A stretch of 21,930 nucleotides of DNA from a virus: positions 1 through 21,930 of the IMG/VR virus record IMGVR_UViG_3300025168_000768; one strand, 5' to 3'. A program made the position numbers and the translations under genes. Below the pieces are notes generated by a model. That model did not search any database. It was not told the origin of the DNA and was given only the letters and a program-made list of their open reading frames with translations. Below are positions 3,486-21,930 of the stretch, piece after piece. How positions within the stretch are numbered: the stretch's first letter is position 1; each line of letters opens with the position of its first letter.

Positions 3486-4139
3486 TTACAATTTATTCAG
3501 AAAATTGTTAAATAGTTTAAGTTTAGTCTCTTCGAGATTTCGACTTGAAGTACTTGATATAGTTTTCTGAATATTCTCTATTTCTTGAGGCATCCAAGTA
3601 TTATTTACCTGTATCCACTCAACACCTTCCATAATTCCCTCTACAAATGCAGATGGGGCAGAAGGGTCTGCTACAATATCCCCAGCAGTTGCAAGTTGAA
3701 AGTCACTTTGAACTTCTGCAACACCAGATTTATTATTCTTTAATGTTCCCATGCCTCTTGATGATACACCTAATGTTGCACCTTCACGCATAAGATTCTT
3801 GACTATTTCTCCCATTGGAGTACCCATGATCTTTGCACGACCTCTAAAGTCATCTCCATCTGCTTTTAATTCTTTAATCATGTGAGAAACTCTGTCGAGA
3901 TTAATGACTGGGCCTTGTGGATGTCCTAGTTCTCCGTATGCACGATTCTTTGCAACGTACTCACGATTGTATCGTGCAGTCTCTTTCTGAAGTATCTCTA
4001 CTGGATAAACTCGACCATTGCGATTCTTAATTCCACCTTGCATAAAGATGCCTTCGATGAAATATTCTTTTTCACCATCTTCTTTTGCCTCAGTGATAAG
4101 TTCAAGGGCATGGTTCTGTACTTCGCAGATGAGTTTCAT
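3486..4139 (-). CDS. 21: Prohead maturation protease gp21
   Basis: 217 residues, close to T4 gp21 (212). It is a herpesvirus-assemblin-like serine protease (family U9/S78) that sits in the prohead core and cleaves capsid and core proteins after L/I-x-E. The catalytic His is seen in GELGHPQGP (His73) and the Ser in LGVSSRGMG (Ser126 or Ser127). The conserved FIEGIFMQGG...NGRVYP at about residues 27-46 and the DDFRGRAKI strand at about 96-104 also fit the family. The start ATG lies one base past the stop of the preceding 130-aa gene, with TAGGAA inside that gene. It precedes gp22 and gp23, its substrates. Confidence 0.95.
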   Translation of the reverse strand: MKLICEVQNHALELITEAKEDGEKEYFIEGIFMQGGIKNRNGRVYPVEILQKETARYNREYVAKNRAYGELGHPQGPVINLDRVSHMIKELKADGDDFRGRAKIMGTPMGEIVKNLMREGATLGVSSRGMGTLKNNKSGVAEVQSDFQLATAGDIVADPSAPSAFVEGIMEGVEWIQVNNTWMPQEIENIQKTISSTSSRNLEETKLKLFNNFLNKL

Positions 4140-4140
4140 G

Positions 4141-4533
4141 TTAGTTTCCTACGTCTGATCTTTTGTGGAGTTTGAGAACAATACTTCCTTTTGCAGCTGC
4201 ACCAGAAAGTGTAAAGACAACATTTGATGCTCTCTCGAATGAATTACACTCTAAGTGTAGGTTGTCTCTCTGAACATTGATTTGTCCATTTTGACCATAA
4301 CATTTAAATATAGTGTTTGCACCTCTTTTAATATCCCACATATTGGCTGCACCGAGATTTGACCAAATGATCTCAGATATATTCATCTCTTGGACTTCTT
4401 CTCCAACTGTGTTTGCACCATTACCAGTTAATCCACCTACACCATCAGTATTATTCAAAGCTACAAAACCTGTTGCATTTGCAGATACAGTTACATATCC
4501 ACCCTTTTGATTGTTGTATATTTTAGTTGTCAT
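4141..4533 (-). CDS. Head-region structural protein, unknown family
   Basis: 130 residues, with no Cys/His cluster or enzymatic motif. The composition (many N, G, V, T; segments GGYVTVSANATGFVALNN and VVFTLSGAAAKGSIVLKL) suggests an all-beta protein, as for head decoration or small virion proteins. It sits directly before gp21 and next to other core genes, so a role in the head or prohead is likely, but the sequence alone does not show it. AAGGAATAGAG precedes the ATG, and the gene is 9 bases from its upstream neighbour. Similar small proteins occur here in marine T4-like phages in my recollection; not verified. Confidence 0.72.
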   Translation of the reverse strand: MTTKIYNNQKGGYVTVSANATGFVALNNTDGVGGLTGNGANTVGEEVQEMNISEIIWSNLGAANMWDIKRGANTIFKCYGQNGQINVQRDNLHLECNSFERASNVVFTLSGAAAKGSIVLKLHKRSDVGN

Positions 4534-4542
4534 CTCTATTCC

Positions 4543-5214
4543 TTATTTCGTAGCAGAATAAGCAAAATCTACCATCTTCATAAATGCACTAGGGCCCTTT
4601 TCCATAGTGTCAGCAAACTTCTTTTGATTAGCGGGTTTTAATGCACCAATAACTTTGACGAGAAGATTTGCAGTTTGCATATCAACTGTTAAAGTCTTAC
4701 CATTTTTAAATTTAATTTTTTGTGCTTGTTTGTCTTTTGCAATCTTTTTAAGAGTGTCTACTATTGCTTCATCAAGTTGAACTTCTACAACTTCATCTTC
4801 ATCAAGTTCGACTTCAACTTCTTCTCCAAGTTTATTACCTGTGAGATTTGAAGTGTTACGATTCTTACCAAAGAGTTTACCCATGACCTTTGCAGATGCA
4901 TCAGTTCCCTGAGTAGGTTTGTCATCTCTCTCACCTTTCTCTGCCAACTTACCAGATACAGGGGGATTACCTTTTCCTCTGTCATTACCTTCATGGCCTG
5001 GCGTTGAAAAGGGTTGATCTATTGTACCATTGAAAATCTTTTCTTGTGAATCATTCAAATATGGTGCTTTCTGAATTGTATGTAAATCCATAAATTCTTT
5101 TTCACCTATTGCATGAGGAGCTGCACCGAGAGCAGCTGCATCATTTGCAGGCCTTGGTCTATAACCTGTAAATGGTTGCCCTGCTTCGGTAAATAACTCA
5201 CTAAACTTTTTCAT
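4543..5214 (-). CDS. Prohead-core candidate protein (gp68 position)
   Basis: 223 residues. The N-terminus MKKFSELFTEAGQPF resembles N-termini of T4-like head-internal proteins, and FTE followed by A is close to the gp21 cleavage consensus (L/I-x-E). The middle (about residues 70-125) is polar, Gly/Lys/Asn-rich and probably disordered. An acidic stretch (about 130-148, EEVEVELDEDEVVEVQLDE) follows. The C-terminal 75 residues form a likely helical domain (KKIAKDKQAQKIKFKNGKTL..., TANLLVKVIGAL, NQKKFADTMEKG). It occupies the place of T4 gene 68 between the gp67-like gene and gp21, but I see no clear similarity to gp68. AGAGGA lies upstream. Confidence 0.72.
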   Translation of the reverse strand: MKKFSELFTEAGQPFTGYRPRPANDAAALGAAPHAIGEKEFMDLHTIQKAPYLNDSQEKIFNGTIDQPFSTPGHEGNDRGKGNPPVSGKLAEKGERDDKPTQGTDASAKVMGKLFGKNRNTSNLTGNKLGEEVEVELDEDEVVEVQLDEAIVDTLKKIAKDKQAQKIKFKNGKTLTVDMQTANLLVKVIGALKPANQKKFADTMEKGPSAFMKMVDFAYSATK

Positions 5215-5217
5215 TGG

Positions 5218-5391
5218 TTATTCCTCTTCTGTGGTTTCTTTATCAAACAAAGATTGTCCAACTTCTATTCTTTTAAGTGCAACAGCATCTTTTGCTTTCT
5301 GCATAAGAAGGTCTGCAACGCCTTGTTTGAACTCAGATGTTCTATCTTGCATTAAATGATTCACAACGTCTTTACTTAATACCTCTGTCAT
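5218..5391 (-). CDS. Small prohead core protein (gp67-like)
   Basis: 57 residues from the ATG at 5391 (MTEVLSKDVVNHL). A longer reading from a TTG at 5403 is possible, but that codon overlaps the ribosome binding site GGAGGA, so the ATG is preferred. The protein is a single amphipathic helix-rich chain ending KRIEVGQSLFDKETTEEE. This recalls T4 gp67, a small prohead core protein that also ends in an acidic tail after KIAIARNFLIEGEE. Gene order (gp20, then gp67, then gp68, then gp21 in T4) supports the assignment. The T4 acidic tail is much longer. The gene has its own late promoter and a strong binding site, as expected for an abundant core component. Confidence 0.6.
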   Translation of the reverse strand: MTEVLSKDVVNHLMQDRTSEFKQGVADLLMQKAKDAVALKRIEVGQSLFDKETTEEE

Positions 5392-5419
5392 AATATCCTC
5401 CAAATAGACTAATTTTTAT

Positions 5420-5452: not shown

Positions 5453-6658
5453 CTATGAAAAATAAGGAACTTTATATTCAGTTCCACCAATATTTATCGT
5501 GATATATCCAGCTGGATTTACCAAAAGTCTATCTGAAAACTGTACTCCTGCCTGTGTTTCTGTATTTTCAGATGTTGATGCAGTCGCAACAAGGTTTGCA
5601 GAAGCAAATTTTGTAGCAATACTTGTATTTGTATTTGCAAGTGCAGCTAAAGATGCAACATTTGCAACCTGAGCACGATCATTAACAAGAAGTGTTGTAT
5701 TCGAAACTTGCATACGATCATTGACAAGAAGTGTCGTGTTTGCAACTTGCATACGATCATTAAACAGAACAGTTGCATTTGCAACCGCAAGAAATAGTAC
5801 GTTATTTGAAGTTCCATCCTGACCTCTCCACTTTCCAGTGGCTGCATTGTATTGAAGAAACTTGTTGTTAACCTTTGCAGTTGCTCTGTCAACATCATCT
5901 AAAAACTCAAGTCTTACCTCTCCACCACCACTACTACTTCCAGCAGAAGCTGCAATACGAGACATACGATTGTCAAGTCTTTTTGATAAATCCTCTTTAA
6001 GTTTTCCGAATTGATCTACAATCGGTTCGAGAGATGGTGTATCTCCTGTATCACCTTTCTCTCCCTGATCCCCTTTATCGCCCGTTTGACCTGTCGATCC
6101 TTTTACGCCTTGCAGTCCAATAGAACCCTGTTGTCCTCTTTCACCTTGACTGCCCTTTTCCCCTGTGGGCCCTGTTTTACCTTGTACACCAGTGTCCCCT
6201 TTGATACCCTTACCTTGGATTCCCTGTATTCCTTGGTTGCCCTTTTCTCCTTGACTTCCTCTTTGACCTTCTGGGCCTTGTAGTCCCTGTATTCCTTCAT
6301 ATCCACGAAACCCTCTTGAGCCTGTGTCTCCCTTATTTCCTTGTTCACCTTTATCGCCAGTCTCTCCCTTGTCTCCCTGTGGCCCGACATTACCTGTATC
6401 ACCCTTGTCTCCTTTTAATGTACGAAGTTGTTCCGCAAGTTCTTTTGCAGAAACAGAATCACCTTTTTCGCCCTTCGTACCTTGAGGGCCTTGATCACCA
6501 GTCTCTCCCTTTTCTCCTTGTTCTGGAGTAGGAATTTCAAGAGACTCGAAAAGATTAATTGTTTCTTCTTTTAATTCTTTTGAGAGTTCTGTACGCTGTT
6601 TTTTGAGTACTCCAATAAGCGTAGAAAGTATCTTAGCATTTGCAACTTCTTGGCTCAT
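5453..6658 (-). CDS. Collagen-like virion fibre protein
   Basis: 401 residues. An N-terminal helical segment (1-46) is followed by Gly-X-Y repeats at residues 48-68 (7 triplets) and 83-207 (about 41 triplets, with one break at about 149-152). A helical linker follows (about 210-240). The C-terminal part has three 13-residue repeats of the type NTTLLVNDRMQVA and ends GYITINIGGTEYKVPYF, a short beta domain I associate with marine T4-like virion proteins. The triple-helix repeats predict a trimer that protrudes from the particle. Its location between portal and prohead genes suggests a head fibre, but it may belong to the tail. The start overlaps the preceding gene by four bases (ATGA). Confidence 0.85.
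   Translation of the reverse strand: MSQEVANAKILSTLIGVLKKQRTELSKELKEETINLFESLEIPTPEQGEKGETGDQGPQGTKGEKGDSVSAKELAEQLRTLKGDKGDTGNVGPQGDKGETGDKGEQGNKGDTGSRGFRGYEGIQGLQGPEGQRGSQGEKGNQGIQGIQGKGIKGDTGVQGKTGPTGEKGSQGERGQQGSIGLQGVKGSTGQTGDKGDQGEKGDTGDTPSLEPIVDQFGKLKEDLSKRLDNRMSRIAASAGSSSGGGEVRLEFLDDVDRATAKVNNKFLQYNAATGKWRGQDGTSNNVLFLAVANATVLFNDRMQVANTTLLVNDRMQVSNTTLLVNDRAQVANVASLAALANTNTSIATKFASANLVATASTSENTETQAGVQFSDRLLVNPAGYITINIGGTEYKVPYFS
5676..5792 (-). repeat. Three 39-base tandem repeats
   Basis: Units at 5676-5714, 5715-5753 and 5754-5792 begin CGATCATT on the plus strand and encode 13-residue copies of TTLLVNDRMQVAN type. Bases 5676-5720 match 20255-20299 in the other repeat fibre gene with a single mismatch in 45. 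Confidence 0.9.
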
Positions 6659-6921
6659 GCTAAAATGTCCAACCGAGACTTCTCCACGTTAGCTTGTAAT
6701 ACTTTTATGATTTGTTTTGCACGATTTACTTTATAGACCAGCATATATGGATCAAGAGGATCACCCTTGACCTTAGTGCCACGTAACTGTTGTAGATGTT
6801 GAACGTAGTTAGACTTTCTCGTTTTGTCTTTTTTCTCAACTTCCGTATAGTGTATTGCGTTTGTTCTTATTGTTCTGAGAAGGTCTGAAATATGTTTTGC
6901 CGTATTTACGTTCAATTTCAT
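6655..6921 (-). CDS. Small basic protein downstream of portal
   Basis: 88 residues, strongly basic and helical, rich in Lys and Arg (KKDKTRKSNYVQHLQQLRGTK). No membrane segment and no catalytic motif are seen, and I do not recognise a named family. AAGGAATG lies upstream of the ATG. The gene begins 3 bases after the gp20 stop and overlaps the collagen-like gene by 4 bases (ATGA), so all three are translationally coupled. It holds the position of T4 gene 67 but is basic rather than acidic, so it is not a gp67 equivalent. A nucleic-acid or scaffold contact is possible from charge alone. Confidence 0.75.
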   Translation of the reverse strand: MKLNVNTAKHISDLLRTIRTNAIHYTEVEKKDKTRKSNYVQHLQQLRGTKVKGDPLDPYMLVYKVNRAKQIIKVLQANVEKSRLDILA

Positions 6922-6924
6922 AAA

Positions 6925-8595
6925 TCATTCCTTATCAGCCGTTGAAGATTCAGAGTTTGCAACCGACTCCATAAGATTCGTCATACTTTCAACAAGTTTT
7001 TTTTCTTCGTAACTAATTTCTTTTTCAACAACAATAGGTTCGATTCTCTTTTCTTCTTCTTTTTCTTCTTCTTCAATTGTTGGAGCAACAGGTTCAACTG
7101 CCTCTTGTTCTTCATCTTCATCATCATACGCACCAGCTTTCTCTTCGTCAGCTATTTCTTCTTCTTGTTGTTTAATATCTTCTTCATTCATTCTCAATAT
7201 GGTCTTACGAACATAATTCTCTGAGAAGTATTTTCCAACAAACTGATCTACCTCTTGTAAAAGGCCAAGTCTTTCTCTCAATATTTCAGACTCTTTTAAT
7301 TCTGTGAAATGATTGTCATCAGCAAAGTTGTATGAAATCTTTTGTTTGAGTTCTTTCCACTCACTTCTTCTTACAACACCTTTAAGTGCAAGATGTATTT
7401 CAAGCATATTGTCAAACATCTCTGAGAAACGAGAACGTAGTCTCTTAACGAATTTTGAGAACTTTACCTCATCTCTTGTAACTTCGGTGGAACGACCAAT
7501 AGAAAATTGATTTTCAGCCTCTAATCGAGATACTGGAACATTTAATGATTTATATAATCGCTTACGAAAATACTCTACATCCTCCATCTCTCCGAGGTTT
7601 TGTCCGCCAGGAAGCGTTGTAATTTCTGTGCCTCGCCCACCTTCTCTTCTAGGGAGCCAAAAGTCCTCTAGCATTGTCATAAACTTACGATCATCTCGCA
7701 CTTCACCAGTGGCTGCATCGTAGACAACTTTGTTCTTATTACGAGTCATCATGTCTCGTAAATGTTGCTCCGCTTTAATCTTTGGTAAGTTTCCTACGTC
7801 AATATAGAAAACTCTTCTCTCAGGAGCTCTTGCAAGACGATAGATGACAACTGCATCTTCCATCATTCTAAGCTGATTGAGAGGTTTAATTGATTTGTGT
7901 AGATGAGACAGAACCATATTGTTGTTCTCATCAAGTATACCAGAGTGACAATAGATGATACTGTCTGGTGCTATCTTAATTCCACCTGTTGTCTTATCAC
8001 TAATCCCTGTGTTATTGAACATATAAAATTCATTGTAACCTTTTATGATCTCGACACCTGTTTTGTTGTCAGTTGCTTTGATAGGTTCTCTCATCTTACG
8101 AATTTTACGTGGGTCAATATATCTTAACTCTTGTATTCCGAGTCGTGTTTTCTTTTTGTTGATAAGAACATGAAAATAGATACGACCATCCACATACCAG
8201 CGTCTGAACAACTCGTATGCATCATTACTAAAGTCAACAAGACCGAGTAAGTGATCAAATTCTTCTCTGATTTTATCTTTTATGGAATCAGCTATCTCAA
8301 GTCGGTCAAGTTCTATTGATACAGGAGTGTCATCATCATCTAAAACAATTGCTTCATTGATAATGTCCTGTACAGCAATATCTGCTTCGGGCTGAATAGA
8401 CATCACCCGATACTTGGTAACAAGATCAGCTTCCGTCTTTGCATTACCCTCTAAATCAAGGTATGTGCCTGTATGCCCACCACCCGATAGTTCTACGGCC
8501 CCATCCGATTGTTCTGGAGCTATAAAAGATGGTGTGAGGTCTTGCTCATCTTTGTTCGCTTGATTGCGATTGATTTGAAATCCAAATAATTCCAT
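6925..8595 (-). CDS. 20: Portal vertex protein gp20
   Basis: 556 residues (T4 gp20: 524). The dodecameric portal starts head assembly, is the DNA entry channel and joins the head to the neck. Diagnostic segments: MSIQPEADIAVQDIINEA at about residues 65-82, LVDFSNDAYELFRRWYVDGR around residue 120, and the central helical region RAPERRVFYIDVGNLP and GTEITTLPGGQNLG. The C-terminal 90 residues carry a long Glu-rich, probably disordered tail (EEEEKEEEKR) not required for the fold. GGTAGGGAAC precedes the ATG. It follows tail tube gp19 as in T4 (18-19-20). Confidence 0.96.
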   Translation of the reverse strand: MELFGFQINRNQANKDEQDLTPSFIAPEQSDGAVELSGGGHTGTYLDLEGNAKTEADLVTKYRVMSIQPEADIAVQDIINEAIVLDDDDTPVSIELDRLEIADSIKDKIREEFDHLLGLVDFSNDAYELFRRWYVDGRIYFHVLINKKKTRLGIQELRYIDPRKIRKMREPIKATDNKTGVEIIKGYNEFYMFNNTGISDKTTGGIKIAPDSIIYCHSGILDENNNMVLSHLHKSIKPLNQLRMMEDAVVIYRLARAPERRVFYIDVGNLPKIKAEQHLRDMMTRNKNKVVYDAATGEVRDDRKFMTMLEDFWLPRREGGRGTEITTLPGGQNLGEMEDVEYFRKRLYKSLNVPVSRLEAENQFSIGRSTEVTRDEVKFSKFVKRLRSRFSEMFDNMLEIHLALKGVVRRSEWKELKQKISYNFADDNHFTELKESEILRERLGLLQEVDQFVGKYFSENYVRKTILRMNEEDIKQQEEEIADEEKAGAYDDEDEEQEAVEPVAPTIEEEEKEEEKRIEPIVVEKEISYEEKKLVESMTNLMESVANSESSTADKE

Positions 8596-12921: not shown

Positions 12922-13425
12922 CTAATCACAAAATGATGACTTAGTTCCTCCATCATACCTTTTAGCTAATCCTGCAGCTAGTATTAAGTCAGAATAGTTT
13001 TCTGTTCCCACATACATATCAGCAATAATTCTTCCACCATACTTTCCCCAAGAAACATCTCCGAAAGTAATTGGAGTATTAGTAGCAGCTGCATCGGCAA
13101 TTACGTCTGTTACAAATTGAGTAGCAATTTTACCCTGTTCTTTCTCATATGCACATTTTGCACGATATCCTTTTTCGGGAGTATCAATACCACGAATACG
13201 AATACTTAGTTTTCTTAATTCTAAGGGGCCCCATTCAACACGAATACCAACAGTATCCCCATCAATGACTCTTGTAACTTCCCATTCGAATAGTCTTTCT
13301 TCTTCTACAGAAGCATAGATATATGGGTCTTCACTATAAGCATAGACATATTGTGTTGACATTACTGCTACAGTAACAGATAGTGCAAAAAAGATTCCGA
13401 CTAAGTTCTTAAATGGTTCTAACAT
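12922..13425 (-). CDS. Exported staphylococcal-nuclease-like protein
   Basis: 167 residues. Residues 1-30 form a signal peptide or membrane anchor: hydrophobic core LVGIFFALSVTVAVM, then a possible signal-peptidase site at YVYA/YSED. The mature part is a thermonuclease (SNase, OB-fold) domain that cleaves DNA or RNA with Ca2+. Key residues are visible: Asp55 and Asp57 in VIDGDTV, Arg76, Asp81 and Glu84 in RIRGIDTPE, and Arg132 in KYGGRIIAD, corresponding to Asp19/21, Arg35, Asp40, Glu43 and Arg87 of the staphylococcal enzyme. Three Cys (91, 166 and none paired elsewhere) might form one disulphide. AGGAA lies upstream. It is inserted between the two terminase genes, starting 7 bases after gp16. 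Periplasmic location is inference. Confidence 0.88.
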   Translation of the reverse strand: MLEPFKNLVGIFFALSVTVAVMSTQYVYAYSEDPYIYASVEEERLFEWEVTRVIDGDTVGIRVEWGPLELRKLSIRIRGIDTPEKGYRAKCAYEKEQGKIATQFVTDVIADAAATNTPITFGDVSWGKYGGRIIADMYVGTENYSDLILAAGLAKRYDGGTKSSFCD

Positions 13426-16360: not shown

Positions 16361-16867
16361 TTAAGCTACGAAACTTTCACCTTCTGTCCACCCACAACCT
16401 GTGAGTCCACCAGCCTGAAGTGCTTTGAGTGTTCGTATTGTCTCATCTACATTTCTTCCTGTATCGAGAGCATTAACTGTGATGGATTGAATTGTATTTT
16501 CGGGATCAACAATATATGTTGCCCTGAGACACACTTGTTCATGTTGATCAACAACTCCTAACTCACCAGAAAGTTCTAAACCAGAATCAGCAGCTAAAGT
16601 ATGACGAATATTTCTTATAAGATCGTTGTCTTTCTTCCAAGCAAGTTTACAGAACTCATTGTCTCCACTAAATCCAATAACATTGACTCCTTCATCAACG
16701 AGTCTATCCATCTCTAATATTTCTGTTGGACATATAAAAGTGAAATCTTTTGGATAGAAGTAGTATATAGTCCATCCTTCATTGAGATCATTGACCTCAA
16801 TCATTTCATTTTTATCATTCACACCATTACATTTAAACTCTGGAAAAAAGTCTCCAACACCAATCAT
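16361..16867 (-). CDS. 2-Cys peroxiredoxin (AhpC/TSA family)
   Basis: 168 residues from the ATG at 16867; GAGGAG lies 8 bases before it, while the upstream TTG at 16873 would be only 2 bases from it. Peroxiredoxins reduce hydrogen peroxide and organic peroxides in the cytoplasm. The active-site motif is complete: Pro39, Thr43 and peroxidatic Cys46 in FYPKDFTFICPTEI, and Arg115 in LRATYIVDP. A candidate resolving Cys158 sits in LTGCGWTEGE, the place of the CP-W motif of AhpC-type enzymes. Further Cys at 13, 73 and 113. No signal peptide. It follows the outer-membrane protein gene after 16 bases and precedes the gp13 promoter. The reductant (AhpF or thioredoxin) is not encoded in this window. 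Confidence 0.93.
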   Translation of the reverse strand: MIGVGDFFPEFKCNGVNDKNEMIEVNDLNEGWTIYYFYPKDFTFICPTEILEMDRLVDEGVNVIGFSGDNEFCKLAWKKDNDLIRNIRHTLAADSGLELSGELGVVDQHEQVCLRATYIVDPENTIQSITVNALDTGRNVDETIRTLKALQAGGLTGCGWTEGESFVA

Positions 16868-16883
16868 CTTCAAATCTCCTCAA

Positions 16884-17528
16884 TTAAAATTCATATGTTA
16901 TATTAATAGCCTGTGCCTTTGTTCCGATGTTACCACCGACTGTAAATTTACCTACTTGTTTCTCAAGAGTAACTGCTTGATACTCTGACAAATTCCAAGA
17001 CTTTCCATATTCGATACCGACTACGATATGATCAAGTAGATCAACGATACCATTATGAATATGTAACTTATATCCAAACTTATAGAAATCTTCTTCAGTA
17101 TTATTTATGTTGACTGAATAAGTTCCAAAGAGTCCATATGCACTTACTGTGCCTTCAACTTCATCAATGTCTGATAAAACTGTTCCATCATATCCAAAAC
17201 GAGTAAAGATACCTTCTATAGATATATTGTCTGTGATGTCAATATTTCCACCAGCATACAAATCATATTCATACGTTGTATCGTCATCATAGTCCACCTG
17301 AGAGGCCCAAATTCCCCCGAACACTTCTACCACTCCGACACGACCTGATGCTTCAGCCCCTCCATTTACTGCAAGGTGACCCCCATTCTGATTGTATCCA
17401 CGAAAGATATAATCGGAAGAGACTCCAGCGGTAATATCTAAGTCAGCACCAAAAAAACTTTTCTTTTCTTCTTCTGCAAATGCAGAAAATGGTAATAAAC
17501 ATAGTAATAGTATAAGTATCTTTTTCAT
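16884..17528 (-). CDS. Outer-membrane beta-barrel protein (TorF/Gcw_chp-like)
   Basis: 214 residues from the ATG at 17528, preceded by AGAGGA; a longer frame from 17567 would bury the signal peptide and is rejected. Residues 1-18 (MKKILILLLCLLPFSAFA) are a clear Sec signal peptide with a cleavage site before EEE. The mature protein begins with LDITAGVSSDYIFRGYNQNG, the hallmark of the TIGR02001 (Gcw_chp, TorF-like putative porin) family. Alternating hydrophobic strands with many Tyr, Gly and Asp follow, and the chain ends ITYEF, with a terminal Phe as in substrates of the BAM complex. It should fold as a barrel in the host outer membrane. The gene sits between fibre and neck genes and is probably co-transcribed with the peroxiredoxin. 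Confidence 0.85.
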   Translation of the reverse strand: MKKILILLLCLLPFSAFAEEEKKSFFGADLDITAGVSSDYIFRGYNQNGGHLAVNGGAEASGRVGVVEVFGGIWASQVDYDDDTTYEYDLYAGGNIDITDNISIEGIFTRFGYDGTVLSDIDEVEGTVSAYGLFGTYSVNINNTEEDFYKFGYKLHIHNGIVDLLDHIVVGIEYGKSWNLSEYQAVTLEKQVGKFTVGGNIGTKAQAINITYEF

Positions 17529-17551
17529 TTTAATCCTCTTTAAATTTAATC

Positions 17552-17944
17552 TTAAGCACCTGTCCATTGAGCGTTATCTTCATCCCAAACGTAACTATGC
17601 GTTGCATTTGCAGTTGGAGATGGAGTTGGTGCAGTCCATACTAAAGTGTTTGCATGAAGATGCCAAGAACTGTGTGGTTTAGGCCAATGAATAAATCCAT
17701 TAGCAGTATCTCCAGATTCTCCACCGAGATACACCATGCCCAAACCACTATATCTTACTCTAAAATTATTATTGTAAGAAGTTTGTACCCATGTACCTCC
17801 AAGAACCTTTTGACAATAAGCTTGACCTATAGATTCAACTTCATTTCCACCTTCATCCTCTGTATCACTGTCTTGAACAACCACAACTTGTGTAACTGTG
17901 TTTGCAACACCACTTACAGTTTCTAATTTCGCAAAATGTGCCAT
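17552..17944 (-). CDS. Marine T4-like fibre-cluster protein
   Basis: 130 residues from the ATG at 17944 (MAHFAKLETVSGVANTVTQVVVV). A GTG at 17953 overlaps the AAGGAG binding site and is not used. The order of segments is characteristic: an N-terminal strand pair, an acidic segment, LGGTWVQTSYNNNFRVRYSGLGMVY, then HSSWHLHANTLVWTAPTPSP and a C-terminal YVWDEDNAQW. Short proteins of this shape are repeatedly found next to tail fibre genes in cyanophages and other marine T4-like phages and are thought to be virion or fibre-associated. The role is not established. It lies 12 bases after the oxygenase gene. Confidence 0.78.
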   Translation of the reverse strand: MAHFAKLETVSGVANTVTQVVVVQDSDTEDEGGNEVESIGQAYCQKVLGGTWVQTSYNNNFRVRYSGLGMVYLGGESGDTANGFIHWPKPHSSWHLHANTLVWTAPTPSPTANATHSYVWDEDNAQWTGA

Positions 17945-18935: not shown

Positions 18936-19802
18936 TTATGTTGCGGTTCTATATTTTATAATTATAACTCCAGAACCACCACTATTTCCTAATGCACCTG
19001 ATGATTGACCACCACCGCCACCGCCTCCACCGCCTAGGTTGGCTGTTCCTGCAACTGCTGTATCGTCATCTCCTGTTCCTGCTCCACCACCACCAGAACC
19101 TCCAGCAGAATCGGCAGAAGTGAAACCACCACCTCCTCCACCACCAGCGTATGTGACAGATGAACCTGTGATTGTAGAGGCTGTTCCGTTACCACCAGCT
19201 CCGCCTACTCCATTATTTCCAGGCGAACCTGCTGCACCTCCGGCAGCTGCTCCACCGCCACCACCTGCACCACCTATGTTTCCTCCATTTGTTCCACCTG
19301 GCCCACCATCACTTCCTTGTGATGGCGAAGTTGAAGGTGTGTTGCCACTTCCACCTGCTCCGCCTGAACTGGAACTGTGAGCTCCACCGCCACCAGAGCC
19401 ACCATTTCCTCCTGCTCCAGCATTAGGCCCGCCTTTGCCAAGACCACCGCCAGCAGATGCAAGAGAAACAGGACTTCCTATGGAAGAATTATTCCCAGCT
19501 GCACCAGAAGCTCCACCACGTGGGCCGTTTGCAGCTCCTCCAGCACCAATTGTAAATGTGTAAGCATCACCGCCAGTTACAGCTTGTCCTGTACCAATTC
19601 GGAATCCTCCAGCACCTCCACCGCCTCCACGATTAGAACCGCCTCCTGCTCCGCCGGCAACAATGAGATATTCTATCTCATCAACGTCAGCTGGAATAGT
19701 GAAGTCTGCTGTAGAATTAAAAGTTCGAATAGTAATAGTGCCGGCAGCTGCAGCTGATTGAGAGAGAATACCGAACTTTCCGAAACCTGTGACGAGAACC
19801 AT
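18936..19802 (-). CDS. Glycine-rich adhesin-type protein
   Basis: 288 residues. A short N-terminal region (1-45) with beta strands (ITIRTFNSTADFTIPADVDEIEYLIVAGG) leads into about 230 residues dominated by Gly, Ala and Ser (runs such as GGGGGAGGFRIGTG and GGGGGGGG), ending SGVIIIKYRT. This is the glycine-rich domain often found in phage tail-fibre tips and adhesins, thought to form polyglycine-II sandwiches as in the gp38 adhesin of T4-like phages. Its position next to fibre genes supports receptor recognition. The region is much richer in G and C than its neighbours because of GGN codons. AGGTGA precedes the ATG. The long Pro-rich frame on the other strand is only its complement. Confidence 0.8.
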   Translation of the reverse strand: MVLVTGFGKFGILSQSAAAAGTITIRTFNSTADFTIPADVDEIEYLIVAGGAGGGSNRGGGGGAGGFRIGTGQAVTGGDAYTFTIGAGGAANGPRGGASGAAGNNSSIGSPVSLASAGGGLGKGGPNAGAGGNGGSGGGGAHSSSSGGAGGSGNTPSTSPSQGSDGGPGGTNGGNIGGAGGGGGAAAGGAAGSPGNNGVGGAGGNGTASTITGSSVTYAGGGGGGGFTSADSAGGSGGGGAGTGDDDTAVAGTANLGGGGGGGGGQSSGALGNSGGSGVIIIKYRTAT

Positions 19803-19812
19803 TTTATATCAC

Positions 19813-21018
19813 CTAAGCCAAGTTACCAATAAGAATCCAAGTATTTTCTTCAAGTTTTTTGAGGGTTGCAGAAGTAAATCTGTCTGCAACTGTATTTGCA
19901 AGTTCTTTTGAAAGCAGTGTAACACCAGCTGCATTGGAAAATCCAAGTGTATTTGCAGATGCGTGAGTAAGTTCATTAACAAATGATATTTCAGAACCCA
20001 AAGGCATACCGACAGTATCGTATGCTGGTATGTGAATATTAACGGCACTTGCAGTATTGATACACCGAATAAGTTTACCATTATCAGTCAATGCAAGTGT
20101 TATATTGTTTCCACCTGATTTACGAATCGGCATACCTTGAGCTGCAATAAATGTTCCTTGAACATGAAGATTTGCAGCTGGAGCTGAATTACCAATACCA
20201 ACCGAACCTGTAAAGACAGGAGCAACTTTTGTAGCTGCATTTGCAACTTGCATACGATCATTAACAAGAAGTGTTGTATTCGCAACTTGCATACGATCAG
20301 CAATAAGTAATCTTAATGCTGTGTTTGTACCTACGAGATTTGTATTGACAAGAGTTGTTCTTGCAACTTCTGTCGCAATACGTGCATTTGTATTTCCAAG
20401 TGCAGCTAAAGCTGCAACATTTGCAACCTGTGCCCTATCAGCAATAAGTAGTCTCAACGCAGTGTTAGACCCTACGAGATTTGTATTAACAAGTGTAACT
20501 CTTGCAGTCTCTACTGCGATACTAGAATTTGTGTTCGCAAGTGCAGCCAAAGCTGCAACATTTGCAACTTGAGCCCTATCGTTAATCAATAATCTCAATG
20601 CAGTATTTGTGCCTATAAGATTTGTATTAACAAGAGTTGTTCTTGCAACTTCTGTCGCAATACGAGCATTGGTGTTACCAAGTGCAATCGTTGCTTGAAG
20701 GGTTGCACCTCCAATAGAAACTGTACCTCCTGAGAATTTAGTATTTGCTTCAACAAGAAGATTGTTACCAAGAAATCTGGTGTTTGCACTTGTGTGAGCA
20801 GAAACTGCACCACCATAAGTGTTCAATGCACCCGAAACTGTTGCGTTTGCAGTAACATTAGCTGTTTTCTTGATTGACAAAATACGACTCGTTACGTGAT
20901 TTACGCCTGTAGTATTTGCAAGAAAACTTAATTCTTCTGCGAGTTCATTATGGTCTGTACGAAACTGACCAAGTGTATTCGCAACCGCTAAACTGCCAAA
21001 TTTTGTACCAACTGCCAT
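19813..21018 (-). CDS. Repeat-containing tail fibre protein
   Basis: 401 residues. The N-terminal part has beta-helical character (residues about 40-115: VTANATVSGALNTYGGAV, NLLVEANTKFSGGTVSIGG). A tandem repeat of 47 residues follows (ALRLLINDRAQVANVAALAALANTN...ARVTLVNTNLVGSNT), with about two and a half copies at residues 105-245, then two short NDRMQVANTTLLV repeats. The C-terminal 130 residues (VGIGNSAPAANLHVQGTF..., ITLALTDNGKLIRC) are like the end domains of marine T4-like structural proteins. The pattern predicts a trimeric fibre. It shares its repeats with the collagen-like protein at 5453-6658. AGGAAG precedes the ATG. Confidence 0.82.
   Translation of the reverse strand: MAVGTKFGSLAVANTLGQFRTDHNELAEELSFLANTTGVNHVTSRILSIKKTANVTANATVSGALNTYGGAVSAHTSANTRFLGNNLLVEANTKFSGGTVSIGGATLQATIALGNTNARIATEVARTTLVNTNLIGTNTALRLLINDRAQVANVAALAALANTNSSIAVETARVTLVNTNLVGSNTALRLLIADRAQVANVAALAALGNTNARIATEVARTTLVNTNLVGTNTALRLLIADRMQVANTTLLVNDRMQVANAATKVAPVFTGSVGIGNSAPAANLHVQGTFIAAQGMPIRKSGGNNITLALTDNGKLIRCINTASAVNIHIPAYDTVGMPLGSEISFVNELTHASANTLGFSNAAGVTLLSKELANTVADRFTSATLKKLEENTWILIGNLA
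20255..20705 (-). repeat. 141-base tandem repeats plus 39-base repeats
   Basis: Coding repeats. A 141-base unit begins near 20300, again at 20441 and again at 20582 (incomplete). A 39-base unit begins at 20255 and 20294. All preserve frame and encode the repeats of the fibre protein. The two repeat types share the sequence GCATACGATCA with the 5.7-kb repeats. Confidence 0.88.
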
Positions 21019-21057: not shown

Positions 21058-21930
21058 TTATATTGAGAGTGTACGAGTGGTTGAAGTTACTTGACCACCA
21101 CCACCTCCACCGCCTCCGCCACCGCCTCCTGCTCCTACAGCAAGAATTGTGACAGCAATTTCCGAACCTGTTGTTCCTTGTACATTTAATGCTCCAGAAG
21201 AAGTAAATGTATGTATAGTATTGTCACCCGAAGTAGCACTTGAACCACCTGATATAGTCAATTCAGCATCACTTGCGTCTGAAGTATCATAACTAATTAC
21301 AATTACACCAGATGCACCATTAGATCGAATACTTGACTCACCTGTTCTTGAACCACTACCTCCACCACCACGATTAGCTGTTGGAGCAGTTGGTAAATCT
21401 CCCTCATCTGGGCCACCACCACTACCACCATTACCTGTACCACCATTTCCAGCACTACCAATATTTGTACCACCGCCACCACCAGCACCATATGTAATAG
21501 AAGAACCTGTTATCGAAGATGCAGTTCCAGCACCACCAGCTCCAGCATTTGAATCTGTACTAGATGCCCCACCAGCTGCTCCGTCACCTCCACCGCCACC
21601 ACCGACTGAACCAGAACTTATTTTACCAAGACTACCATTCCATTCCGCAGATAGGTTGTTATTATTTCTACCACCTGATGCACCACCACGATAGACATTG
21701 CTTGCGTCATGGAAACCTCCACCACCCCCAATGCCAGTTACAGTTGCTATTCCACTACCCGAAAAAGTTGAACTTCCGCCCGTATACGAATATCCTGTTT
21801 CAGCAAAAGGAACTCTAGGCCCTCCTGCTCCAACTTGCACAACCCAATCTGTGCCTGAAGTACCACCACCACTTGCCATAGTTCTACGAGTGATAAACAT
21901 TAAAAGAAGTCCTGCCCCGCTGTAAATGCA
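21058..21930 (-). CDS. Glycine-rich adhesin-type protein, 5' end missing
   Basis: 290 visible residues; the frame is open through the right edge, so the ATG at 21900 is probably internal. The body has the same Gly-rich pattern as the protein at 18936-19802, ending in GVIVISYDTSD (about residue 213 of the visible part). A second unit then begins (GDNTIHTFTSSGALNVQGTT, IAVTILAVGAG) but stops after a run of 12 Gly and only 10 further residues (QVTSTTRTLSI end). This looks like a truncated duplicate of the module. The GGN codons give a G- and C-rich stretch. As a fibre-tip type protein it may mediate host recognition. Confidence 0.78.
   Translation of the reverse strand, partial: CIYSGAGLLLMFITRRTMASGGGTSGTDWVVQVGAGGPRVPFAETGYSYTGGSSTFSGSGIATVTGIGGGGGFHDASNVYRGGASGGRNNNNLSAEWNGSLGKISSGSVGGGGGGDGAAGGASSTDSNAGAGGAGTASSITGSSITYGAGGGGGTNIGSAGNGGTGNGGSGGGPDEGDLPTAPTANRGGGGSGSRTGESSIRSNGASGVIVISYDTSDASDAELTISGGSSATSGDNTIHTFTSSGALNVQGTTGSEIAVTILAVGAGGGGGGGGGGGGQVTSTTRTLSI

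Follow-up and report, generated by a model that had tools for sequence, protein, structure and literature searches.

We report a collagen-like fibre gene, here called COL, that lies next to the portal gene in a set of uncultured marine T4-like phages. We propose that COL encodes a collagen fibre that is mobile and coupled to the portal, and that probably serves as an adhesive fibre of the head or neck. As a reading of sequence comparisons, this has a probability of roughly one half. Evidence bearing on it includes the recurrence of the gene after gp20, the architecture of its product, and changes at the C-terminal end of the portal protein that accompany it.

A collagen-like gene in the head-assembly block

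The window (the whole stretch of DNA analysed) is the complete 21,930-base IMG/VR record IMGVR_UViG_3300025168_000768. It comes from a T4-like marine myovirus and carries its structural genes on the minus strand in the order gp13-14-15-16-nuclease-17-18-19-20-(88 aa)-COL-(61 aa)-(223 aa)-(130 aa)-21-22-23. COL (401 amino acids; 5453–6658, minus strand) has upstream of it the portal gene gp20 (6925–8595, minus strand; PHROG 213, E 1e-207) and downstream the genes for the gp21 prohead protease (3486–4139, minus strand; PHROG match), the gp22 scaffold and the gp23 capsid protein. In the window gp20 and COL are not directly adjacent, because an 88-aa ORF intervenes (6655–6921, minus strand), whose stop overlaps the start of COL; among the fetched loci, this ORF has matches in L005–L009, L011 and L016 only. 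The 61-aa and 223-aa genes at the place of T4 67/68 (4543–5403, minus strand; weak PHROG matches) probably encode prohead core proteins, and the 61-aa ORF matches a “prehead core component” of S-CREM1. The 130-aa protein before gp21 (4141–4533, minus strand) is beta-rich in its model (mean pLDDT 74.3, better than the model of COL), and a PDB fold search with this model gave no match at E 0.001; we consider it a candidate capsid decoration protein. Three tandem diverged copies of it occur in L021 (613–1768) and L040 (8170–9325), and in many other marine T4-like phages other small proteins occupy the place before gp21.

The original prediction placed about 48 Gly-X-Y triplets between the portal and prohead core genes, and 48 is the number we count, in three tracts of 7, 23 and 18. 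COL scores 80.1 bits against Pfam Collagen (PF01391; curated cut-off 27.2) and thus belongs to that family. It scores 79.7–100.8 bits against the bacterial collagen-like adhesins SclA, SclB and Lcl (NCBIfam), below their cut-offs of 325–500. The tracts are not due to chance, because the longest run in 2000 shuffles of the COL residues was 7 triplets (mean 2.9). Tract 1 covers residues 48–68 (6455–6517, minus strand). Tract 2 (residues 83–151, 23 triplets by regular expression, the last of which, GKG, straddles a one-residue gap) and tract 3 (residues 154–207) form the main rod (residues 83–207; 6038–6412, minus strand), with the one-residue gap near residue 150. The two interruptions had been read as possible flexible hinges. 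For the first (residues 69–82; 6413–6454, minus strand) that reading holds: counterparts of varied lengths lie 5–9 triplets from the rod start in part of the relatives (L006, L007, L011, L019, L040, L041, L200), but the interruption is only two residues long in L009 and absent in many others, among them L045, L062 and L077. The second (GIQGK-GIKG) is a single missing residue, found only in the window, L005 and L006, and the hinge reading fails there.

On both sides of the rod lie segments that recur in relatives. The N-terminal segment (residues 1–47; 6518–6658, minus strand) has the pattern AK.L......K in relatives and a low-confidence modelled helix at residues 2–39; it is probably the anchor or trimerisation end. 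After the rod, the alignment and a low-confidence model point to a helix, probably a coiled coil (residues 208–241; 5936–6037, minus strand). There follow a GGGEVRLEFLDDVD...LQYNAATGKW module present in related fibres (residues 244–277; 5828–5929, minus strand), three 13-residue ..NDR.QV.N repeats (residues 298–336; 5651–5767, minus strand), whose copy number varies among near relatives, and a C-terminal module, LVNPAGYITINIGGTEYKVPYFS, seen in the alignment with relatives (5456–5524, minus strand). A module like LVNPAGYITINIGGTEYKVPYFS terminates a separate downstream protein in L061, L062 and L077. The AlphaFold monomer model of the whole protein, from an alignment of 14 sequences, has a mean pLDDT of 39.8, too poor for a fold search.

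As had been noticed when COL was first described, the repeats are shared with a second fibre-like protein. This protein carries NDR.QVAN repeats (19813–21018, minus strand) and is encoded upstream of gp13. Protein identity between the two sets is 57–59%, and the five best DNA matches reach 84–92% over 47–90 nt. Because of this high DNA identity, COL and the second fibre gene have probably exchanged DNA recently. The second gene is flanked by two glycine-rich proteins (18936–19802 and 21058–21900; Pfam Gly_rich_2). Elsewhere among the structural genes of the window are a putative porin of the TorF family with a signal-peptide-like start (16884–17567; TIGR02001, 74.9 bits, cut-off 47.15), a peroxiredoxin gene beside gp13 (16361–16873; AhpC/TSA, E 1.2e-23), possibly an auxiliary metabolic gene, and, between gp16 and gp17, a staphylococcal-nuclease-like protein with an N-terminal hydrophobic stretch (12922–13425).

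Recurrence after gp20 and variation within the family

Is COL a stray insertion in one phage? A scan of IMG/VR seeded with COL returned eight loci, seven of them close relatives, and the close relatives mostly have the same neighbours within the reach of their contigs. A second scan, seeded with a 35%-identical homologue, showed that many distant phages, too, carry this gene behind gp20; two further scans were seeded with portal alignments, avoiding selection by COL. Over all scans, 35 of 169 distinct portal loci have COL after gp20, and these 35 cover 47–100% portal identity; the collagen-seeded scans enrich this sample for COL. In the portal-seeded scans alone, 8 of 128 distinct portals have COL; among the 103 whose downstream sequence extends for 900 nt or more, 4 have it. 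The start of COL lies -37 to +7 nt from the portal stop in 29 of the 35 loci; the remaining six, the subclade of the window, have a gap of 267–270 nt with the 88-aa ORF between. Since the same architecture and position recur in relatives and in 35 distinct portal loci, we reject a stray insertion.

COL is the sole collagen gene found in one 131-kb and one 80-kb contig, and two COL-negative contigs, a sister's of 152 kb and another of 177 kb, yielded none (all four contigs may be incomplete). Together with the recurrent position, this gives good support to the claim that the gene belongs to the head-assembly block. The synteny between gp20 and gp21 that the original prediction proposed to check thus extends well beyond the window, yet COL is found there in none of the 11 cultured or single-cell phage records examined (Melnitz, HTVC008M, Mosig, P-SSM4, S-CREM1, S-SM2, S-H38 and four single-cell viruses).

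On a tree of the portal core, with the tail left out, the presence of COL changes at least eight times, seven of which are forced by well-supported branches; by this measure COL is gained or lost repeatedly. The tree was built with FastTree only, after merging portals with identical last 250 residues and leaving out portal fragments shorter than 400 aa (L005 and L045; the L045 tail is included in the tail-model test below). One locus, L230 (14 triplets, 1695 nt downstream), was removed from the positives, and 21 portals with little downstream sequence were kept unlabelled.

The family keeps some of its parts and varies others. In 26 distinct proteins the stretch before the rod is 27–64 residues long. 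In 20 representatives, picked by hand from these 26 by thinning close kin, the rod spans 150–205 residues (median 166.5, coefficient of variation 0.09; the 205-residue span, in L053, counts a short tract beyond its 162-residue main tract). A measure that allows comparison with other collagens is the longest uninterrupted tract: it is 69–204 residues (coefficient of variation 0.21) in these 20 proteins and 21–942 residues (0.82) across 56 further collagen ORFs from mixed families. After the rod comes a probable coiled coil and, in several members, a GGGEV.L..LDDVD module. The C-terminal end of complete proteins is 23–452 residues long, and that of L049, cut by its contig, 928; the complete proteins themselves measure 247–693 aa, with one truncated by the contig end at 1145 aa. 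Lineages resemble one another more at the N-terminus than at the C-terminus.

Two loci have adhesin-type neighbours beside COL, and only two. L062 carries an Mtd_N-domain protein with tail-fibre PHROG matches (E 5.8e-12), whose C-terminal motif is of the same kind as the end of the window COL; L040 carries two similar ORFs (256 and 255 aa), the 256-aa one matching the lectin-fold Laminin_G_3 (E 2.2e-21). Large proteins of about 530–900 aa lie downstream of COL in L047, L051, L055 and L072. Searches of large neighbours in L047, L051, L060 and L072 against PHROGs and Pfam gave no family match (six of these proteins are from L047, L051 and L072).

Could COL encode an ordinary tail or baseplate fibre whose gene stands after gp20 by happenstance? 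Collagen-like phage tail fibres (PHROG 5073, 6320, 366 and others) share with it the Gly-X-Y rod, the flanking coiled coil and the variable end. Among the 25 PHROG matches of COL listed (of 48), many are named tail fibre or tail protein, and most cover the collagen region. COL has repeats in common with the fibre gene that lies upstream of gp13. Cyanophages also encode proteins with related modules that are annotated as tail fibre: in S-SM2 and MA01 the gene is between gp16 and gp17, and in S-B05 it stands next to one for a putative carbohydrate-binding-module protein, in a region where no structural genes are annotated. Triple collagen repeats, together with concanavalin A and major tropism determinant domains, have also been described in a pelagimyophage structural operon (PMC7029224); the excerpts of that paper suggest a tail fibre complex or baseplate for these proteins and mention neither a position after gp20 nor the portal tail. 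However, COL lies outside any tail-fibre or baseplate module, following gp20 in 35 loci; this position is kept although the gene is repeatedly gained or lost, and changes in the portal tail accompany it, features that set COL apart from the collagen-like tail fibres. We regard an ordinary tail fibre as very unlikely.

Portal tail and COL

In COL-bearing phages the C-terminal tail of the portal protein terminates in a short amphipathic-looking stretch. In the window this is the motif EKKLVESMTNLMESVAN (residues 531–547 of gp20; 6955–7005, minus strand), of a type common to other COL-bearing phages; the portal of L049 ends in KELTKSMTKFFETL. To judge from the comparisons below, the tail switches together with COL clearly in three lineages and partially in the window's own, and a switch is not evident in three others. 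The excerpts available from the open-licence PMC literature yielded no report of a collagen gene after gp20 or of its coupling to the portal tail, and the switching described here is new.

Tail models were trained without the lineage being tested, and their scores compared with the best of 113 COL-negative tails in the same run. All five tails of lineage B exceed the best negative (7.5–27.1 bits versus 5.5), as do both of lineage D (18.8 versus 4.3) and the single tail of lineage E (22.0 versus 3.9). Lineage A, which includes the window (11.2 bits), has 6 of 16 tails above the best negative (6.6); its other 10 are unrecognised by the cross-lineage models. All tails of lineages C (0/6), F (0/1) and G (0/4), which score -7.8 to 5.2 bits, are likewise unrecognised. 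In total 14 of 35 COL-positive tails exceed the best negative, and we reject a single portal motif across all lineages. At a threshold of 5 bits, 17 of 34 positives pass (left-out models) versus 1 of 113 negatives (full model). With the full model all positives separate from negatives, but this is circular. Two unlabelled portals, L212 and L245, score 42–55 bits when their kin are among the training sequences; once lineage A is left out, L212 drops to 13.3 bits, and L245 falls outside the four best unlabelled rows (the lowest of the four at -0.2). For three thresholds, a sign test on seven independent pairs gives median p-values of 0.0625, 0.125 and 0.25; hardly any pair runs in the reverse direction.

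In lineages D and E the inner tail is like that of COL-negative sisters and the end alone differs. The clearest cases of switching are L072/L073 and L049, which show this pattern, and L210, which sits inside a COL-bearing clade and has neither COL nor the motif. Some COL-negative portals also carry clade-specific terminal motifs (L198, TFTKLKRIL; L180 and L192, KRGEF; also L219, L225 and L254), which hints that partner-specific peptides on portal tails may be more widespread.

The correlation might instead reflect recombination linkage only, with the end of gp20 carried along with the cassette and no interaction between the two proteins. Because the 3' end of gp20 adjoins COL, co-transfer could mimic co-adaptation, and a recombination joint could account for part or all of the switching. 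In 29 of the 35 loci COL overlaps the portal stop or lies directly against it, L049 resembles a transfer from a lineage-B-like donor in both its tail and its COL N-terminus, and the models find no likeness in the tails of lineages C, F and G. On the other hand, the short motif is retained while the linker diverges, and it is retained where the 88-aa ORF splits gp20 from COL. Linkage as the sole cause seems to us somewhat unlikely; it concerns the correlation only and is compatible with any location of COL in the virion.

Where the fibre may sit on the virion

The original prediction read COL as a head fibre or whisker-like decoration, and our results support this in part. The change of the portal end with COL in several lineages points to attachment at or near the head, not to an ordinary tail fibre, and the adhesin-type neighbours at two loci, along with the variable ends, favour a fibre that faces outward. 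We hypothesize that COL, made within the portal gene unit, forms an accessory trimeric fibre at the head or at the portal/neck vertex, and that COL and the last part of the portal tail are exchanged together between marine T4-like phages. The conserved N-terminal helix would serve as the anchor, and the rod of about 160 residues would keep the variable adhesive end, or a separately encoded partner, off the particle, where the end held out by the rod could touch the host or surface glycans. We infer that COL is a trimer and a virion component, that it is anchored N-terminally in the portal region, and that it points outward and binds glycans or the host.

Allowing 0.286 nm for each residue, the rod would be about 46 nm long. 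The whiskers of T4, made of fibritin (wac), are fibres near the neck of about 50 nm, and thus similar to the proposed COL fibre in place and length, but their shaft is a coiled coil, compared with collagen in COL. No fibritin domain was found in COL: Collagen was the sole Pfam family at E up to 0.1, and no fibritin family is among the 25 PHROG matches listed of 48.

A different precedent is SPP1 gp12, a collagen-like capsid protein (PMC7602432, PMC6316719, PMC6813328). According to the excerpts of these papers, gp12 is accessory and trimeric, sits on hexon centres and has its gene in the capsid module, much as COL lies inside the head block. By analogy, COL trimers might decorate capsid hexamers in many copies. 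However, gp12 has 64 aa and is bound to hexons in 180 copies, while complete COL proteins are far longer (247–693 aa), encoded beside the portal and variable at their ends; the two are likened here by description, and of the 794 records with a match, the 60 listed do not include SPP1. The feature seen to covary with COL is the portal tail (the comparison was made on the portal), and the overlap with the portal gene suggests a low, portal-like dosage. In T4, moreover, no part of the portal lies deeper in the head than its crown and C-terminus, according to the excerpts of PMC4493910 and PMC9958956, and a C-terminus that faces the head interior disfavours simple surface decoration. We consider capsid decoration quite unlikely.

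The same orientation counts against an outward fibre docked at the portal C-terminus: if the portal tail binds COL, the contact would lie inside the head. A rival reading has COL act inside the prohead: within the core its N-terminal helix would bind the portal tail, much as a propeptide targets a protein to the core, and the fibre would be packaged, or anchored from inside, and perhaps ejected. The covarying feature is the portal tail itself, and COL stands between the portal and core genes. A further, weak pointer is the tripeptide [LI]xE, of the T4 gp21 type. It occurs at most 12 residues before the rod in 16 of the 20 chosen head-block proteins, where shuffles expect 5.5, and in 8 of 52 collagens away from portal genes. 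However, these sites do not align, Leu/Glu-rich helices make them likely, and the sequences are related; the lectin-like and Mtd_N neighbours and the variable ends resemble outward adhesins. We know of no internal collagen fibre of any phage. A prohead-interior role seems unlikely.

One form of this idea, to which we give equally little weight, is that the end of T4-like portal tails may be an exchangeable docking peptide that recruits a collagen fibre encoded next to it. The fibre would be loaded in the prohead core, since the portal tail points into the head, and the product would be either an internal rod able to exit via the tail tube, for which a collagen rod is thin enough in diameter, or a portal-vertex fibre anchored inside.

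The portal-coupled, probably adhesive fibre of the head or neck is the reading we prefer. COL provides, in uncultured marine phages, a fibre whose genetic ties are to the portal and not the tail, a case open to testing, and the portal tail that changes with it is a candidate binding partner. If this is true, portals would also act as platforms on which accessory fibres dock.
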